The position numbers and the translations under genes are program-made. The notes under the pieces are model-generated. The model ran no database searches. It was not told the DNA's origin and saw only the letters and a program-made list of their open reading frames with translations. This document shows positions 15,936 through 24,045 of a DNA stretch of 42,427 bases, piece after piece. The DNA is taken from positions 1-42,427 of IMG/VR virus record IMGVR_UViG_3300012936_000040, one strand, 5' to 3'. Every line of letters starts with the position of its first letter. The stretch's first letter is position 1. This DNA comes from a virus.

Positions 15936-16202
15936 ATGTATATTCTTACTTTAACTGGTCAACCTGAGCAGGTCTTTTCTCTCAACAATATTGACGACAT
16001 TCAGGTTGTTCCTATGTTTGAGGAAGAAGAGGATGCTGAGCGTTATGTATATTTGGTAGATGAATTAGCAGATCCTATGGCTCCTGAATTGGATGTGGTA
16101 GAGATCGACGGAGATGCTATAATTACTGTATGTGAGTCACAGGGACACGAGTATATTGTGTTCTCTAAAGACGATTTGATAATTCCACCTCGTGTTTTAT
16201 GA
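15936..16202 (+). CDS. Hypothetical protein between gp47 and gp46 (88 aa)
   Basis: An 88-residue acidic protein with alternating strands (MYILTLTGQPEQVFSL, YVYLVDEL, EIDGDAIITVCESQGHEYIVFSKDD). It ends in an ATGA junction with gp46, so it is made with the nuclease complex. The motif-free sequence does not reveal a function. Its fixed position between the two subunits suggests an accessory role. Confidence 0.72.
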   Translation: MYILTLTGQPEQVFSLNNIDDIQVVPMFEEEEDAERYVYLVDELADPMAPELDVVEIDGDAIITVCESQGHEYIVFSKDDLIIPPRVL

Positions 16203-17914
16203 TTACGTTTAAAAAAGTTCGTTGGAAAAACTTCTTGAGCACGGGTAACACCTTCTCAGAAGTGAACTTAACTAGTGCAAAAACAAATCTAATCGTTGGA
16301 ACTAACGGAGCAGGTAAGAGCACCATTTTGGATGCTCTTACTTTTTCTTTGTTTGGAAAACCTTTCCGTAAGATTAGCAAAGGATCTTTGGTCAATAGTA
16401 TCAATGAAAAGGATACTATTGTTGAGGTTGAATTTAGTATTGGTAAGAATGAGTATCATGTGTTGCGTGGTATCAAACCAAACAAGTTTGAGATTACTGT
16501 AAACGGACAGTTGTGGAATCAAGAAGCTTCCGTTGCAGATCAACAAAAGAATTTTGAACAGAATGTTTTGAAGATGAACTTCAAATCATTTACTCAAGTT
16601 GTTATCTTGGGTGCCTCTACGTTTGTTCCCTTCATGCGAATGCCCTTAGGGCAACGAAGGGAAATCATTGAAGACATTCTAGACATTCAGATCTTCTCTA
16701 CGATGAATGATAATCTGAAAGGTAAGGTCAAAATCAACAGTGAAGAACTTAGAGAAGTTGATTACTCTTTGGAAGTAGTGAAGAATAAAATTGCTCTCCA
16801 AAAAGAACACATGATGAATTTGGAGAAGCGAGACAAGGAAGAGATTGACAGAAAGCGAGCAAAAATTGCTGAATATCAGCAAAAGGAAACTGATAATAGC
16901 ACTATTGTTGCAAACATAACACAACAAATCGAAAAACTTAATAAAGATATGCAGGACTATCAAGAGTCCAGTGCAAAACTTAGTAAGTTAAACACATACT
17001 TGATTAAGTTAACACATAAGTTGAACACATGTAAGAAAGAACATGAGTTCTTTGAAGACAATCATGTGTGTCCTGTGTGTACACAAGATCTAGCAGATGA
17101 CTTCAGAAAAGAAAAGATTGCTAGTGGTAAAAATAAAGTTAATGAGATGACTATTGGGTGGAATGATCTCAATACTGCTATCGAACAAGAAGAAAATAGG
17201 TTTGCGAAATTTACTGAACTATCTACAGAAGTAAACGAACTCAACACTAGTCTCAATCAAACTAACTACGAGATTACTTCTATTAGAAAAACTATCAATG
17301 ATATCAATCAAGAGATTGATGATCTGACTAAAGACAATGCTGATGCGAAAGCAGAGTATGAAACACTGAAGTCTCTTGTAGGAGAGAAGAAAGAGTTAGC
17401 ATCTCAGTTAGAGGAATGTAGAAAAGATAAAGATACATTAAGTGTTGCATCTAAACTTCTCAAAGACAGTGGTATTAAAACTAGAATTATCAAGACCTAT
17501 CTTCCTACGATGAATAAGATGATTGGTCATTATCTTCAGAGTATGGAGTTTTATGTAAACTTTACTCTCGATGAGAACTTTGAAGAAACAATTAAATCTA
17601 GATACCGTGATGTTTTTTCGTATGAGTCTTTCAGTGAAGGAGAAAAAGCTCGTATTGATATCGCTCTGTTGCTTACTTGGCGTTCTATTGCTAAGCTCAA
17701 GAATTCTGTGGATACTAACCTCTTGATTCTGGACGAGATCTTTGATGGATCTCTTGACCAATCTGGTAGTTCTGAGTTAAGCTGGATCTTAAGAAACTTT
17801 GATGATCGAACTAATGTATTCGTAATCTCTCATAAAGAGTCTATGAATGATAAGTTTGAGAGAACAATCATTGTAGAGAAACCAAAGAACTACAGTACGC
17901 TCCATGAATATTGA
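16199..17914 (+). CDS. gp46: Recombination ATPase subunit (Rad50-like)
   Basis: SMC-family ATPase partner of gp47. It has 571 residues (T4: 560). Walker A is GTNGAGKS at 34-41. Long coiled coils flank a zinc hook CPVC (Cys291-Cys294). The ABC signature FSEGEK starts at 478, and Walker B LLILDEIFDG lies near 508-517. ATP-dependent clamping of DNA and DNA-end resection are the known roles of the family. The stop overlaps the next gene by 11 bases. Confidence 0.95.
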   Translation: MITFKKVRWKNFLSTGNTFSEVNLTSAKTNLIVGTNGAGKSTILDALTFSLFGKPFRKISKGSLVNSINEKDTIVEVEFSIGKNEYHVLRGIKPNKFEITVNGQLWNQEASVADQQKNFEQNVLKMNFKSFTQVVILGASTFVPFMRMPLGQRREIIEDILDIQIFSTMNDNLKGKVKINSEELREVDYSLEVVKNKIALQKEHMMNLEKRDKEEIDRKRAKIAEYQQKETDNSTIVANITQQIEKLNKDMQDYQESSAKLSKLNTYLIKLTHKLNTCKKEHEFFEDNHVCPVCTQDLADDFRKEKIASGKNKVNEMTIGWNDLNTAIEQEENRFAKFTELSTEVNELNTSLNQTNYEITSIRKTINDINQEIDDLTKDNADAKAEYETLKSLVGEKKELASQLEECRKDKDTLSVASKLLKDSGIKTRIIKTYLPTMNKMIGHYLQSMEFYVNFTLDENFEETIKSRYRDVFSYESFSEGEKARIDIALLLTWRSIAKLKNSVDTNLLILDEIFDGSLDQSGSSELSWILRNFDDRTNVFVISHKESMNDKFERTIIVEKPKNYSTLHEY

Positions 17915-18536: not shown

Positions 18537-18543
18537 AAACTGG

Positions 18544-18573
18544 TCCGACTGGGGTTCACCTAGTCGGATCTTT
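18544..18573 (+). terminator. Rho-independent terminator after the oxygenase-like gene
   Basis: The stem tccgactggg / cctagtcgga (18544-18553 and 18559-18568, one G-U pair) has a 5-base loop, followed by tcttt. The short T-tract makes it moderate in strength. The next promoter's -10 box begins 4 bases further on. Confidence 0.7.
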
Positions 18574-18576
18574 GTG

Positions 18577-18605
18577 TATCATATATGCATAACAAACAAC
18601 ACGTC
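18577..18605 (+). promoter_or_regulatory. -10 box and SD-less leader of the VWA gene
   Basis: A -10-like tatcat at 18577-18582 lies exactly 29 bases before ATG 18606, followed by an A/C-rich leader without Shine-Dalgarno. The cobS gene has the same arrangement (tatact, 29 bases before its ATG), and 11 of the first 14 bases match. No good -35 box is visible; its expected place falls inside the terminator hairpin. Confidence 0.5.
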
Positions 18606-20744
18606 ATGCATACCCAAGAAATCAAAGGCAACCTCGCTCGTCTCCTTGCTACCGAGAATCTTATCGTAGAGCATCGCAAGACTCCTACAGCATCCTTTGA
18701 CGTGGATCGTCGTGTGCTTACCCTTCCCATGTGGGACAATGCTTCTGGTGTTGTGTACGACATGCTTGTCGGTCATGAGGTAGGTCATGCTCTCTTCACT
18801 CCTAATGAAGACTGGCGTGATGTTGCAGACTGCCCTAAAGACTTTGTGAACGTCATTGAAGATGCTCGCATCGAGAAACTGATGAAGCGTAAGTTCCCTG
18901 GTCTTCGTAAGTCTTTCAATGGTGGTTACAAGGAACTGAATGATAAGGACTTTTTTGCTATTGCTGATCAAGATATCAGCAAGTTCAGTCTGATTGACCG
19001 TATCAACCTGCATTTCAAGATTGGTGCTAGTGCAATGATCCCCTTCTCTATTGAGGAGCAGGTGTTTGTTGCTCGCACTGATGTTGCTGAGACCTTTGAA
19101 GAAGTGCTGCAGATTGCTGTTGATGTACATAACTTTAGCAACAAAGTTGAAACTCCCATGACTCATGAGGAGATGCTTGAGGAAGCAGCTAAGCGTGAAA
19201 ATGAAAGCACCGATGACGAACAACCTGAGCAGCAACAGCAGCAAGAGGGTGAAAGCGATCAGAGTGCAGAAGATATGCCTGCACCCCAGTCTTCTAATGC
19301 TCCAACTCAGCAGCAAAACTGGGATGATGATGAGGAAGAAGAAACTGATGATGTAGATAACATGAGTGAGGGTGGTGATACCTCAAAAACTCAACGTGCT
19401 TTTGATCAAGCATCTGAGGATTTGTCTTCACGTCATAGTAGAAATCCAATTTATGTTGAGATTCCTGAAGCAATTGACCTAGATAATCATGTTGTTGATT
19501 GGACTGTACTTCATAACTGGATTGATTCTCAAGCAGTCGATGTGGAAAATTATGAGTTTGTGGACAACCAATACTATGAGTTCCGTAAGCAATCTCAAAA
19601 GGAGGTAAACTATCTTGTTAAAGAGTTTGAGTGTCGTAAGTCTGCTGACGCTTACGCTCGTGCTAGTCAATCTAAGACTGGTGTGCTTGATACTACAAAG
19701 TTACACACTTATCGTTATAACGAAGATCTCTTCAAAAAAGTAACTGTTCTTCCTGATGGTAAGAATCATGGTTTGCTTTTCCTTCTTGACTGGTCTGGTT
19801 CCATGGCGAATGAGATCCTTGCAACTGTTAAACAAGTTCTGAATTTGACTGCATTTTGTAAGAAAGTTCAGATCCCATTTGAAGTTTATGCATTCACTAA
19901 TGAGTGGTATGCTGCTAAGCGAGCAATGTCTGAAGACCCTGGTGCTGACTTGTCTTACGAGCGCACTGGTGTTAAGAAGAACACTGTACACATTGATCCT
20001 AATCACTTTCACATGATGAACTTTGTTTCATCTCGTTCTAACGCTCGTGAGTATGAGCGTCAGTGTAAGAATCTTTTCCGTGAAGCATGTTGCTACAGGT
20101 ATCATGTTCGTTACAGTGCTACCTTTGGTGTTGGGTTGTCTGGTACTCCTTTGAATGAAGCTATCGTGATGCTTAACTACATCATCCCTGAGTTCAAAAA
20201 ACAGAACGATTTGCAGAAAGTGAATGTCTGTATCTTGACTGATGGTGAAGCACAAGCTGTTGCATATGGTCAGGAGATCTGGCTTGATCACAAAGATGAG
20301 TACAAAGTTACTGCTCGCCGTATTGACTGGTATCAGATTCTCCGTGATCGTAAGACTGGTCGCGTTTATAATGCATTTGATTATGATAATGTTACCAACA
20401 TCTTTATTCAGCAAGTGCGTGATCGTCACCCAGGTGTAAATGTTATTGGTTTCCGTGTTCTTGCTGGTAATCAACTGCAGAATTTCGTTGGTCGTTTTGC
20501 ATCTTTTGAAGGATATTCAAAGATTCAGAAACAATGGAAGAAAGAGAAGTCTGTTGTGATTCCTACACCCAAGGCGTTCACTGCTTTGTACGCTATCTCT
20601 AACAACTCTTTGAGTGAAGATACAGAATTCAAAGTTGAGTGTGGCGCTAAGAAGGGAGAAATCTCTCGCGCATTTAAGAAGATGCTTGGTAGCAAATCCA
20701 CAAACAAGAAACTACTCAGTTCTTTCATTGAGTATGTCGCTTGA
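18606..20744 (+). CDS. CobT-like protein: HEXXH metallopeptidase-like plus VWA domain
   Basis: A 712-residue protein from ATG 18606; ATG 18585 would add seven residues but does not fit the leader shared with cobS. N-terminal HEVGH (57-61) with a downstream VIEDARIE (Glu85/Glu90) resembles a gluzincin zinc site. A central acidic, Gln-rich linker spans about residues 185-265. The C-terminal VWA domain has the MIDAS motif DWSGS (395-399), with GTPLNEA and LTDGEA as further metal-site segments. The layout parallels CobT-type partners of MoxR/CobS AAA ATPases, and such an ATPase is encoded next. It probably works with it as a metal- or protein-remodelling pair; the substrate is unknown. Confidence 0.82.
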   Translation: MHTQEIKGNLARLLATENLIVEHRKTPTASFDVDRRVLTLPMWDNASGVVYDMLVGHEVGHALFTPNEDWRDVADCPKDFVNVIEDARIEKLMKRKFPGLRKSFNGGYKELNDKDFFAIADQDISKFSLIDRINLHFKIGASAMIPFSIEEQVFVARTDVAETFEEVLQIAVDVHNFSNKVETPMTHEEMLEEAAKRENESTDDEQPEQQQQQEGESDQSAEDMPAPQSSNAPTQQQNWDDDEEEETDDVDNMSEGGDTSKTQRAFDQASEDLSSRHSRNPIYVEIPEAIDLDNHVVDWTVLHNWIDSQAVDVENYEFVDNQYYEFRKQSQKEVNYLVKEFECRKSADAYARASQSKTGVLDTTKLHTYRYNEDLFKKVTVLPDGKNHGLLFLLDWSGSMANEILATVKQVLNLTAFCKKVQIPFEVYAFTNEWYAAKRAMSEDPGADLSYERTGVKKNTVHIDPNHFHMMNFVSSRSNAREYERQCKNLFREACCYRYHVRYSATFGVGLSGTPLNEAIVMLNYIIPEFKKQNDLQKVNVCILTDGEAQAVAYGQEIWLDHKDEYKVTARRIDWYQILRDRKTGRVYNAFDYDNVTNIFIQQVRDRHPGVNVIGFRVLAGNQLQNFVGRFASFEGYSKIQKQWKKEKSVVIPTPKAFTALYAISNNSLSEDTEFKVECGAKKGEISRAFKKMLGSKSTNKKLLSSFIEYVA

Positions 20745-20757
20745 CGAACTGTCCACA

Positions 20758-20777
20758 TGGGGTCGCTAGTGACCCCA
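20758..20777 (+). other. Hairpin between the VWA gene and cobS
   Basis: Perfect 7-bp inverted repeat tggggtc/gacccca (20758-20764 and 20771-20777) around gctagt. There is no T-run, so it may be a weak terminator, an mRNA 3' stabiliser, or an element overlapping the cobS promoter. Confidence 0.6.
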
Positions 20778-20785
20778 CTAAACCC

Positions 20786-20814
20786 TATACTATATTCATC
20801 AACACAAAACACAC
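20786..20814 (+). promoter_or_regulatory. -10 box and SD-less leader of cobS
   Basis: tatact at 20786-20791 lies 29 bases before the cobS ATG. The leader (tcaacacaaaacacac) is nearly free of G and T and has no Shine-Dalgarno. Its match to the VWA gene leader at 18577 suggests co-regulation of the pair. Confidence 0.55.
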
Positions 20815-21912
20815 ATGCCTTTCGCTCCCGTTCCCGTTTCAACTCAAGATCTCGTTTCTTACCTTACCGACAACTGCGGTACTGAGGTAAATACGAAGCA
20901 ACTGTTTGAAGCGTCCGAGCACTTCAACTGCTCTCTCGCTACTGTAAAGAAGCGTCTTAAGGATTACAAACGCGGCATCGGCAAGTGGGACTTGACCGTT
21001 CAGGAACGCCTTGAGAAATCTCTTGCTGCTCCTGCCGCGATGCCTGCTATTGAGCAGAACCTTATTCCATCTAAAGATCCTAATTATGTTCCCTTCGGAA
21101 ACTACAGCGACATCAAGAAGATTCTTCAGTCTCGTATCTTCTATCCTACTTTTATCACTGGTCTCTCAGGAAACGGTAAAACTTTCTCTGTTGAGCAAGC
21201 ATGTGCTGCTCTAAATAGGGAGTTGATTCGTGTGAATATCACCATTGAAACTGACGAGGATGATCTTATTGGTGGGTTCCGTCTTGTTAATGGCGAAACT
21301 GTGTGGCACAATGGACCTGTCGTCGAAGCTTTGGAGAGGGGAGCTGTACTTCTTCTAGACGAAGTGGATCTCGCCTCTAACAAGATCCTGTGTCTCCAAT
21401 CTATTCTTGAAGGTAAGGGTGTATTCCTGAAGAAAACTGGTCGTTATGTACAACCCAAGGAGGGTTTCAATGTTATTGCAACTGCAAATACTAAGGGTAA
21501 AGGCAGCGATGACGGTCGCTTTATTGGAACCAATGTTCTCAATGAGGCATTCCTTGAGCGTTTTGCGCTGACCTTTGAGCAAGAGTATCCTACCCCTGCT
21601 ACCGAGAGCAAGATCTTGAAGATGGTTGCTACTTCTCTTGCAATTGCTGATGAAGAGTTCTGCACCAACCTTTCTACGTGGGCAGACATCATCCGTCGCA
21701 CTTTCCGTGATGGTGGTGTTGATGAAGTGATCTCCACTCGTCGTCTTGTTCACATCATGCGAGCATTTGCTATCTGGGGTGACCGTATGAAAGCAATCAA
21801 AGTTTGCGTCAATCGTTTCGATGATGAGACTAAGCAATCTTTTATCGAACTCTATGATAAGATTGATGCTGGTGTAGACCTGAACCAAGAGGAGGAGTCT
21901 GAAGATGCATGA
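20815..21912 (+). CDS. cobS: CobS-like MoxR-type AAA+ ATPase
   Basis: A 365-residue AAA+ ATPase. The Walker A motif GLSGNGKT ends at Lys122. Walker B is AVLLLDEVDLAS near 177. Sensor-1-like NVIATANTKGKG is near 220. FIGTNVLNEAFLERF is the region holding the arginine finger. The N-terminal 65 residues look like a winged-helix or CobS N-domain. Cyanophage homologues are generally named cobS after the cobaltochelatase ATPase. In this window it sits beside a VWA protein, as MoxR/CobS ATPases typically do, and no CobN subunit is present. A role in cobalamin synthesis is therefore unproven. Confidence 0.88.
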   Translation: MPFAPVPVSTQDLVSYLTDNCGTEVNTKQLFEASEHFNCSLATVKKRLKDYKRGIGKWDLTVQERLEKSLAAPAAMPAIEQNLIPSKDPNYVPFGNYSDIKKILQSRIFYPTFITGLSGNGKTFSVEQACAALNRELIRVNITIETDEDDLIGGFRLVNGETVWHNGPVVEALERGAVLLLDEVDLASNKILCLQSILEGKGVFLKKTGRYVQPKEGFNVIATANTKGKGSDDGRFIGTNVLNEAFLERFALTFEQEYPTPATESKILKMVATSLAIADEEFCTNLSTWADIIRRTFRDGGVDEVISTRRLVHIMRAFAIWGDRMKAIKVCVNRFDDETKQSFIELYDKIDAGVDLNQEEESEDA

Positions 21913-22075
21913 GCATATTCGCAACATGCTAGGTAGGGTTGTAGCATTGCGGGGCACTCAAGCCCGCACTGCTAAGATCCTTGGTGGCGACGGCATGGAA
22001 CTTTACATGCAATCGATTGACGGAACCGTCTTTAAGTGCTACCATGATAATATTGAGTACATCTATGAACGTTGA
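21905..22075 (+). CDS. Small hypothetical protein, SH3-like (56 aa)
   Basis: A 56-residue ORF that begins within the last codons of cobS. It has a strand pattern typical of a small beta barrel: LGRVVALRGTQARTAKILGGDG, MELYMQSIDGTVFKCY, NIEYIYER. It overlaps the next ORF by 11 bases. Function unknown; called from overlap architecture and coherent sequence. Confidence 0.65.
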   Translation: MHEHIRNMLGRVVALRGTQARTAKILGGDGMELYMQSIDGTVFKCYHDNIEYIYER

Positions 22076-22367
22076 GATGAGTTTCAAATATAATGAAGAT
22101 GCTCTACTCCAAGAGCTACGTGATTACATTGCTGGAACGTACAACCAGCATTACTCCTCAGGTAACGACAGCATTCAAACGCTAGATCTTATTGAGGCAT
22201 GTGGAGACGCTGAAGCATTCTGCAGATCTAATATTCTGAAGTATGCTTCTCGTTATGATCGGAAAGGAACTGCCCGTCGTGATATCGTGAAGATCCTTCA
22301 CTACGGTTTGCTGTTACTGTATTTTTCTGATCAATCCACTAAGCGTGAGGAGTACCCCAATCGATGA
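22065..22367 (+). CDS. DUF3310-like protein
   Basis: About 100 residues from ATG 22065 (ATG 22077 is an alternative). The core IQTLDLIEACGDAEAFCRSNILKYASRYDRKGTARRDIVKILHYGLLLL matches the DUF3310 (SaV-like) family found in many phages, often near nucleotide metabolism genes. The biochemical role is not established. It ends in an ATGA junction with the sliding clamp gene. Confidence 0.72.
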   Translation: MNVEMSFKYNEDALLQELRDYIAGTYNQHYSSGNDSIQTLDLIEACGDAEAFCRSNILKYASRYDRKGTARRDIVKILHYGLLLLYFSDQSTKREEYPNR

Positions 22368-23083
22368 CTATGACCCCTACATCTACGAAGACATTAACTA
22401 TTTCTGAGGAAACGTATCAGATCCTCGTAAACTTCTCGACTATTAATTCTTCGATTGTTTTCAAGAAGGGGAATCTGATTCGTACAATTGCTAACGCAGA
22501 AAATATTCTTGGTGAGTATGTCTCTGAGGAATACATTCCTCAAGACTTTGCTATCTATGATCTCTCTGAGTTTATTTCTGCTATCGGTATTTGTGCGCGA
22601 GATAATTCTCTTCCAACATTGCACTTTGATAACGATGACTATGTGACTATCAAAGGTGGTAATCTTTCTATCAGGTATTACTTCAGTGATCCTCAGATTA
22701 CTTTGAAGGTTGCACCCGAGAAGGAAGTTAAGTTCCCTGGATCAAACATTTCATTCACTATTAATCAAAGTGATCTAAAAAACTTGCGTGATGCTCTCGC
22801 CAAGTTCAACCTTCCCGAAGTTCTATTCAGATCTCGTGATGGTAAAGTTACTGTACATGGTGTTGATACTGAGAATGCAACTAGTAATACATTCTGGATG
22901 GATTTCCCTGGCGGACAATCTACAGGAGATTTTGATCTGACTCTAAACACTGAGAACTTGCGTGTTGCGAGAAACTATGACTATCATGTTAAAGTTTCTG
23001 AGCACTTGCTGAGTGAGTGGGCAGTTGTTGGACCTACTAAAGATTTGCAATTGAAGTATTACATCGCACTGGAGCCTAAATGA
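22364..23083 (+). CDS. gp45: Sliding clamp
   Basis: Trimeric processivity clamp for the polymerase, also an activator of gp55-dependent late transcription. It has 239 residues (T4: 228). LTISEETYQILVNFSTINSSIVFKKGNLIRTI and the C-terminal WAVVGPTKDLQLKYYIALEPK are family hallmarks. The start may be 22364 or the ATG at 22370; the ATGA junction favours the first. It ends in another ATGA junction with gp44. Confidence 0.92.
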   Translation: MTMTPTSTKTLTISEETYQILVNFSTINSSIVFKKGNLIRTIANAENILGEYVSEEYIPQDFAIYDLSEFISAIGICARDNSLPTLHFDNDDYVTIKGGNLSIRYYFSDPQITLKVAPEKEVKFPGSNISFTINQSDLKNLRDALAKFNLPEVLFRSRDGKVTVHGVDTENATSNTFWMDFPGGQSTGDFDLTLNTENLRVARNYDYHVKVSEHLLSEWAVVGPTKDLQLKYYIALEPK

Positions 23084-24045
23084 AGAGAGATTTTCTCTGG
23101 GTGGAGAAATACCGCCCAACTAAAATTGATGAATGCATTCTCCCTGAAGGATCTAAGAAATCCTTTCAGGGTTTTCTTGACCAGGGAGAGATTCCTAACC
23201 TGCTTCTAAGCGGTCCTGCTGGTGTTGGAAAGACAACGGTTGCTCGTGCCCTCTGTGATCAGTTAGGCGCTTCCTACCTGCTTATAAACGGGTCTGACGA
23301 GGGTCGTTCTATCGATACCATCCGAAACAAGGTCAAACAGTTTGCTACTAGCATCTCACTGACCTCTAGCGCTGCCCACAAGGTGGTTATTCTGGACGAG
23401 GCAGACAACATGACCTATGACGTTCAGATGATCCTTAGAGCGTCCATTGAGGAGTATCACAGCAACTGTAGGTTTATCTTTACTTGTAACTTCATCAACA
23501 AACTGATTGATCCTATCAAGTCACGTTGCACTGTTGTTGATTTTACGATCAAACCTTCTCACAAAGAGAAACTGCAGGAGCAGTTCTTCTATCGCATCCG
23601 TGATATCCTCACAAAGGAAGAGATCAAGTATGAAGATAAGATCATCGCCAAACTTATCAGGAGATACTATCCAGACTGGCGTCGTCTTCTGAATGAAGCA
23701 CAAAGGTTTGCATCTTCAGGTGAGATTGATGCAGGCATTCTTGTAGATATTGCAGACATCAATATCGATGATTTGATTAGAGCGATGAAAGATCGTAACT
23801 ATTCTACAGTCAAGAACTGGGTTACCCAGAACATGGATCATGATCCCTATATGGTGATGCGAAAGATCTATGATGTTCTGTACAAACATGCTAGCAATGC
23901 TAGTATCCCTAACTGTGTACTGATTATTGCAAAGTATCAGTATCAAATTCAATTTGTCGCAGACCAAGAGATTAATACTCTTGCCTGCCTTACGGAGATT
24001 ATGCTAGATGGAGTTGAGTGGAAGTCTAATGCAAGTACCAAGTAA
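23080..24045 (+). CDS. gp44: Clamp loader ATPase subunit
   Basis: AAA+ subunit that opens and loads gp45. It has 321 residues (T4: 319). Walker A is GPAGVGKT (45-52), the DEAD box is at 106-109, and SRC is at 148-150 as the arginine finger. The N-terminal WVEKYRPTKIDECILP is the family signature. The stop overlaps the next small gene by 17 bases. The small subunit gp62 is encoded 1.45 kb downstream, separated by Dam and small genes. Confidence 0.95.
   Translation: MKRDFLWVEKYRPTKIDECILPEGSKKSFQGFLDQGEIPNLLLSGPAGVGKTTVARALCDQLGASYLLINGSDEGRSIDTIRNKVKQFATSISLTSSAAHKVVILDEADNMTYDVQMILRASIEEYHSNCRFIFTCNFINKLIDPIKSRCTVVDFTIKPSHKEKLQEQFFYRIRDILTKEEIKYEDKIIAKLIRRYYPDWRRLLNEAQRFASSGEIDAGILVDIADINIDDLIRAMKDRNYSTVKNWVTQNMDHDPYMVMRKIYDVLYKHASNASIPNCVLIIAKYQYQIQFVADQEINTLACLTEIMLDGVEWKSNASTK

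Follow-up and report, generated by a model that had tools for sequence, protein, structure and literature searches.

Among the closest described relatives of the locus studied here are the pairs NorQ-NorD and CbbQ-CbbO, in which a MoxR-family ATPase is joined by a VWA partner, and the cobaltochelatase subunits CobS and CobT (TIGR01650 and TIGR01651). NorQD structures show a finger of the VWA domain inside the ATPase pore and the N-terminal domain docked on the ring; the VWA domain twists upon ATP hydrolysis, and the complex is reported to drive metal insertion (excerpt of PMC13036017). The locus in question lies in the linear virus record IMGVR_UViG_3300012936_000040, which was analysed over its whole length of 42,427 bases (referred to as the window), and consists of a gene for a VWA protein with a zincin-like N-terminal domain, here called the zincin-VWA protein, followed by an ATPase gene generally named cobS. 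The pair occurs in almost every T4-like virus of marine cyanobacteria and is usually labelled as vitamin B12 genes. The gene family is already known, the window pair being a member of PHROG 459 (T4-GC 146) with PHROG 249 cobS, for which the databases give no mechanism. In the S-RSM4 record FM207411, cobS is annotated as 'cobalamin phosphate synthase like', which we presume to be a confusion of two unrelated genes that are both named cobS.

In the literature, cobS is listed as a cyanophage core gene (excerpt of PMC3037559), and the PHROG 459 family has been renamed CobT with the statement that 'peptidase' was a mistake (excerpt of PMC8651126). In MoxR-VWA conflict systems, VWA is in rare cases fused to a metallopeptidase effector domain (excerpt of PMC7159879). 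Literature searches restricted to open-licence papers returned no paper for cobT with HEXXH, and for MoxR with HEXXH only one that, by its title, deals with another peptidase family. Based on the comparisons reported below, we propose with a probability of roughly 0.55 that the pair is a MoxR-VWA remodelling machine with a zincin-armed VWA partner, directed at a target in DNA replication or recombination and not at a CobN chelatase.

A conserved zincin-like N-terminal domain in a VWA protein

The zincin-VWA protein matched the PHROG 459 'peptidase' profile with 911 bits over residues 8-719, nearly its full length. The motifs HEVGH, VIEDARIE and DWSGS named in the initial annotation are all present; its numbering began at an internal ATG at position 18606, so that its residue n corresponds to n+7 here. 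The metal-ion-dependent adhesion site (MIDAS) of the VWA domain, which had been called intact, is complete with D402, S404, S406, T521 and D553. By chance, 0.046 HEXXH motifs are expected in the protein from its own composition, and five are present in all six window frames together; the informative criterion is conservation. In an alignment of the window protein with 44 homologues of 32-96% identity to it, the residues H64, E65, H68, N89, E92, D93, R95 and E97 are invariant in all 45 sequences, as are the D and S residues of the MIDAS, and T521 is found in 44. The N-terminal domain is also the best conserved part of this alignment, with a mean majority fraction of 0.68; the helical and VWA part reaches 0.57 and the linker 0.37. 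When cellular relatives were included (35 N-terminal domains), ten invariant columns were left, seven of which are the HEXXH residues and the N, E, D and E of the second motif. For a survey of viral contigs, 219 loci were merged by shared DNA into 143 groups; the VWA gene was found in 141 of these, and HEXXH is intact in all 130 groups with a readable N-terminus.

AlphaFold2 modelling of the whole protein from 45 sequences resulted in a predicted local distance difference test score (pLDDT) of 76.0 and a predicted template modelling score (pTM) of 0.72, while residues 1-190 alone were modelled confidently from 35 sequences (pLDDT 87.4, pTM 0.83). In the model, HEVGH and the ED pair (residues 92-93) are placed on two confident helices (Table 1) in an arrangement as in zincins. 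When the whole model was compared with the PDB, matches were obtained via the C-terminal half to MDN1-MIDAS (Z 16.1, root mean square deviation 3.0, 213 residues aligned) and to the NorD VWA domain (Z 15.6, root mean square deviation 4.2, 237 residues aligned); no CobT chain appeared in the match lists of the whole model, which is uninformative on relatedness. Midasin/Rea1, whose MIDAS-bearing VWA domain is the best structural match of the phage C-terminal half, is a single giant polypeptide in eukaryotes, and we know of no zincin domain in it.

The N-terminal domain alone matched ArdC (Z 6.4), selecase (6.4), BlaR1 (6.2) and jannalysin (6.2), and further BepA, IrrE/PprI, Wss1 and larger zinc peptidases, all of which are, by title or known identity, zinc metallopeptidases or their relatives. 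Although each match is weak, those of the predicted domain are consistently zincins, and this consistency is hard to explain otherwise. Mini-gluzincins, ArdC, IrrE/PprI and Wss1 share a weak fold match with the phage domain, but no listed chain's title mentions a VWA fusion or a pairing with MoxR, and their substrates are different. Searching PDB sequences with the VWA protein, or with the first profile made from it, gave no match. The proposed fusion of a zincin-like domain to a VWA domain is supported, and the N-terminal domain probably holds a working metallopeptidase site.

The ATPase and its pairing with the VWA gene

The ATPase ORF (open reading frame) begins after a gap of 70 bases. The expected MoxR-family identity of its product was confirmed by a match to AAA_5 (74.4 bits, cut-off 22) and by the Walker A and Walker B motifs GLSGNGKT and LLLDEVD; the product also matched PHROG 249 'porphyrin biosynthesis' with 457 bits, and its closest match among small solved proteins is CobS (E 1e-22). 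An N-terminal extension of approximately 100 residues (window 20815-21130) precedes the AAA core and gave a very weak HTH_23 hint (E 0.19).

In 135 of the 141 viral groups the VWA gene is accompanied by cobS. Of the six groups without it, five break off no more than 577 bases downstream, and L217, with 1,898 bases downstream and a different gene next, is the one possible exception to the pairing. Only two groups carry cobS without the VWA gene, and both are cut within 648 bases upstream. Tallies in the phage collection, compared as totals and not as record lists, are equal for both proteins (Synechococcus 365, Cyanophage 61, Prochlorococcus 24). Among close relatives, cobS without the VWA gene, which would have spoken against a functional pair, was thus seen at contig ends only; a remote Staphylococcus-phage ATPase differs in having no VWA neighbour. 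A DUF3310 gene (window 21981-22367) adjoins the ATPase gene, and such a gene is also located near this Staphylococcus-phage ATPase (L335, 3924-4340).

Comparison with CobT and with NorD/CbbO-type proteins

CobS-CobT and the phage pair have the gene pairing and the ATPase type in common, but the phage proteins score far below the equivalog cut-offs: the VWA protein reached 21.2 bits against TIGR01651 (CobT, cut-off 759), and the ATPase 68 bits against TIGR01650 (CobS, cut-off 558.55). The match of the VWA protein to PF06213 remained below threshold as well (20.3 bits, cut-off 26.1) and falls mostly in the acidic linker, and PF11775 was not reported for this protein in the Pfam scan. For comparison, 20 genome loci of bona fide CobT were collected, 19 of which were readable (L255, without the motif, was left out), and HEXXH is absent from the region preceding the second motif in all 19. 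At the aligned positions CobT has mostly SMAL[KR] and EQ (EQARVE), whereas HEXXH relatives have HEV[AG]H and ED, so that in CobT the HEXXH region is replaced and the D is lost; the window protein has HEVGH and EDARIE. We discarded the idea of an HD...H variant of the site in CobT, as the alignment sets HEV[AG]H against SMAL[KR]. Comparing the profiles of the N-terminal domain and CobT directly yielded a weak score (Prob 5.2, E 0.0075), and the link between the two is drawn through bridging relatives that bear HEXXH and exceed the Pfam CobT cut-off, namely PhiR41 (94.7 bits) and the N-terminal domain from Xenorhabdus (43.3 bits).

A protein of the CobN/ChlH family (PF02514) was found in none of four genomes with such VWA genes (Xenorhabdus, Morganella, Clostridiales and Anaerolineae, two of them draft metagenome bins) and in all five CobT genomes tested. 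The doubt about the cobalamin label voiced in the initial annotation is upheld by the comparison with bona fide CobT and by these CobN-less genomes, while the argument given for it, the absence of CobN from a 42-kb fragment, is uninformative. Our results argue against the correction of 'peptidase' to CobT (excerpt of PMC8651126): all 130 readable groups have an intact HEXXH, the structure matches, each of them weak, are zinc metallopeptidases, and none of the 19 bona fide CobT sequences read has HEXXH.

The NorD/CbbO-type set comprised eight VWA proteins located beside CbbQ_C ATPases and named by this position only; 11 of 20 CbbQ_C regions had no readable VWA partner and were left out together with one CobT-like case. 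All eight keep both His residues and the ED pair, with the catalytic Glu replaced by another residue. Comparison of the phage N-terminal domain with a NorD/CbbO-type one by hhalign (Prob 96.4, E 1.2e-9) aligned the His and acidic residues. NorQ-NorD and CbbQ-CbbO are therefore alike to the phage pair in combining a MoxR ATPase with a VWA partner whose N-terminal domain is homologous, with HxxxH and EDxRxE aligned, and differ in that the catalytic Glu of HEXXH is missing there. The window ATPase scored 17.3 bits against CbbQ_C, under the cut-off of 20.6. One domain thus occurs in three states: HEXXH, H-x-A-A-H, and lost.

Replication and recombination neighbourhood

Among viral groups with enough sequence, gp46 lies upstream of the pair in 60 of 61, and downstream gp45 is found in 53 of 55 and gp44 in 50 of 52. 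The pair is likewise located between gp46 and gp45 in Pelagibacter phage HTVC008M and Ochrobactrum phage OC; the Ochrobactrum-phage protein, used as query, found no relatives among the viral contigs. In the window the gene order is uvsY, uvsW-type helicase, gp47, gp46, 2-oxoglutarate (2OG) oxygenase, the pair, DUF3310 gene, gp45, gp44, DNA polymerase, uvsX and gp41-type helicase (coordinates of the main features in Table 1). A strong hairpin is predicted at 18542-18570, directly upstream of the zincin-VWA gene (-22.1 kcal/mol, z -4.7, equalled in 0 of 200 shuffles), and a weaker one lies between this gene and cobS (z -2.15).

Table 1. Features of the locus in the window (positions on IMGVR_UViG_3300012936_000040)
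Feature	Position	Strand	Basis
gp46 (SbcC-like), upstream anchor of the conserved cluster	16199..17914	+	
Zincin-VWA protein, 719 amino acids, PHROG 459 'peptidase', T4-GC 146 in P-SSM2 and P-SSM4	18585..20744	+	
N-terminal zincin-like domain, residues 1-190	18585..19154	+	AlphaFold2 model of the domain alone; structure matches
HEVGH, residues 64-68, within helix 55-71	18774..18788	+	H, E, H invariant in 45/45
NVIEDARIE, residues 89-97, candidate third-ligand segment, within helix 85-103	18849..18875	+	conserved residues in 45/45
Acidic, poorly conserved linker, residues 191-266	19155..19382	+	majority fraction 0.37; low pLDDT
MIDAS DWSGS of the VWA domain, residues 402-406	19788..19802	+	motif; VWA structure matches
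D553 of the MIDAS with the beta meander after it, residues 553-600 (putative pore 'finger')	20241..20384	+	secondary structure
MoxR/CobS-type AAA+ ATPase, 365 amino acids, PHROG 249	20815..21912	+	
gp45 sliding clamp, downstream anchor	22364..23083	+	
gp44 clamp loader	23080..24045	+	

Outside the T4-like phages, related pairs mostly have dnaE, primase or bet/exo genes as neighbours, and some of the genomes are without CobN. Fifteen non-T4-like elements, picked by hand from the matches and not sampled, were inspected, and in 13 of them a replication or recombination gene (annotated or identified by Pfam) is located within about 6 kb: Rhizobium X66, Vibrio ICP2, PhiR41, Gordonia Hanem, two IncC plasmids, an Acinetobacter plasmid, nickie, Cantare, the Cobavirinae phage T5S1, BUCTxx99, Xenorhabdus and Clostridiales. 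Within this distance none was found in Roseobacter phage CRP-810 and Gordonia phage Anamika. On the IncC conjugative plasmids (L344, L346) a VWA gene with HEAAH stands beside bet and exonuclease genes, and 1774 of 72,556 plasmid records contain a relative of one such VWA protein.

Eighteen diverse VWA proteins from phages, plasmids and genomes, the window protein included, were compared, and HEXXH is present in 16. Both His residues are lost in Pseudomonas phage nickie (L347, 4974-7058) and Stenotrophomonas phage BUCTxx99 (L352, 4992-6977), while the ATPase and dnaE neighbours are kept. A pattern search among the 16 HEXXH proteins found the second motif in 14; it carries G in place of N in Brevibacterium phage Cantare and was not seen in Gordonia phage Anamika. 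Pseudoalteromonas phage XG4 (L151, 6036-8278, minus strand), which is unannotated, encodes the VWA and HEVSH domains in two distinct ORFs; the VWA ORF comes first, and the ATPase and gp45/gp44-like ORFs come after the two domains (read by eye).

Relatives were detected in 16 of 201 Chloroflexota genomes; the second motif is present at 14 of 18 loci, all 14 of which have HEXXH, and the neighbourhoods gave no clear context. The four Chloroflexota loci without the motif were left out. A3 relatives were found in one of 194 cyanobacterial genomes, the one containing the phage-like match L227. Judged overall and not case by case, most matches of the whole-genome scan look like phage contigs binned into genomes.

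Discussion

By analogy with NorQD, the ATPase would form a hexameric ring, whose pore would be plugged by the VWA domain while the MIDAS holds the target. ATP-driven movement would then shift the target relative to the zincin arm and lead to limited cleavage or metal-assisted remodelling. The target would most likely be a phage DNA replication or recombination protein, or a host protein bound to DNA, and not the CobN cobalt chelatase. The synteny suggests a role in DNA replication or recombination, and the conservation of the Glu points to catalysis, while the two natural losses of HEXXH are consistent with a remodelling role that does not depend on it; proteolysis proper is rated lower than the proposal as a whole. 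The initial interpretation is partly supported, namely in the fusion, the pairing and the doubt about cobalamin.

Several observations weigh against this proposal. Taken singly, the structure matches of the N-terminal domain are weak (Z at most 6.4; best Foldseek E 0.044), and the third metal ligand may be E92 or D93, the latter being more widely kept. As nickie and BUCTxx99 lost HEXXH and kept the pair, catalysis is dispensable there and not universally required. The 15 elements outside the T4-like phages were chosen by hand, and replication genes are common in phages. Finally, both cyanobacterial genomes considered (2/2) have a CobN/ChlH-family (PF02514) protein, which makes a hijack of CobN conceivable in cyanophages.

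Such a hijack is the published view, in which the pair represents viral cobaltochelatase subunits CobST that use host CobN to raise cobalamin production (excerpt of PMC8651126). It gains from the nearness of the ATPase to CobS, its 68-bit TIGR01650 match included, from the mobile relatives that exceed the Pfam CobT cut-off and from the PF02514 proteins of the cyanobacteria, but we consider it unlikely in view of the scores far under the TIGR cut-offs, a sub-threshold Pfam match mostly to the linker, the SMAL[KR] and EQ of bona fide CobT, the absence of PF02514 from four genomes with such VWA genes as opposed to its presence in five of five with CobT, and the replication synteny of the pair. 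Doubtful to a lesser degree is a non-catalytic MoxR-VWA chaperone in which the zincin fold serves for metal binding or docking, as it probably does in NorD/CbbO, and no peptide is cleaved. The eight NorD/CbbO-type proteins that keep H...H and ED without the Glu, the two phage relatives that have the pair without the site, and the metal insertion reported for NorQD (excerpt of PMC13036017) fit this explanation, whereas the invariance of the Glu (45/45 aligned sequences, 130/130 groups, 14/14 Chloroflexota) would have no obvious reason if the residue served structure or metal binding only. A remodeller of virion assembly or of the tail, comparable to the MoxR-VWA system of an archaeal virus that PMC7159879 cites (excerpt), has this precedent and the structural genes of the same window to its credit; with the pair in the replication and recombination block, outside the structural block, and with related genes on conjugative plasmids, it appears very improbable.

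Beyond the window, zincin-VWA proteins with MoxR rings may constitute a widespread, unrecognised class of ATP-driven zincin machines that act in the DNA replication and recombination of conjugative plasmids, phages and phage-plasmids, perhaps by clipping proteins stuck on DNA, with CobT and NorD/CbbO as catalytically dead members; we offer this as a tentative idea with the odds against it. At present, cobS is classed among the auxiliary metabolic genes of cyanophages and cited as evidence for viral manipulation of B12. Should the pair prove to be a replication-linked zincin remodeller, the claims about viral B12 would need revision, and the same label is found on many mobile elements.

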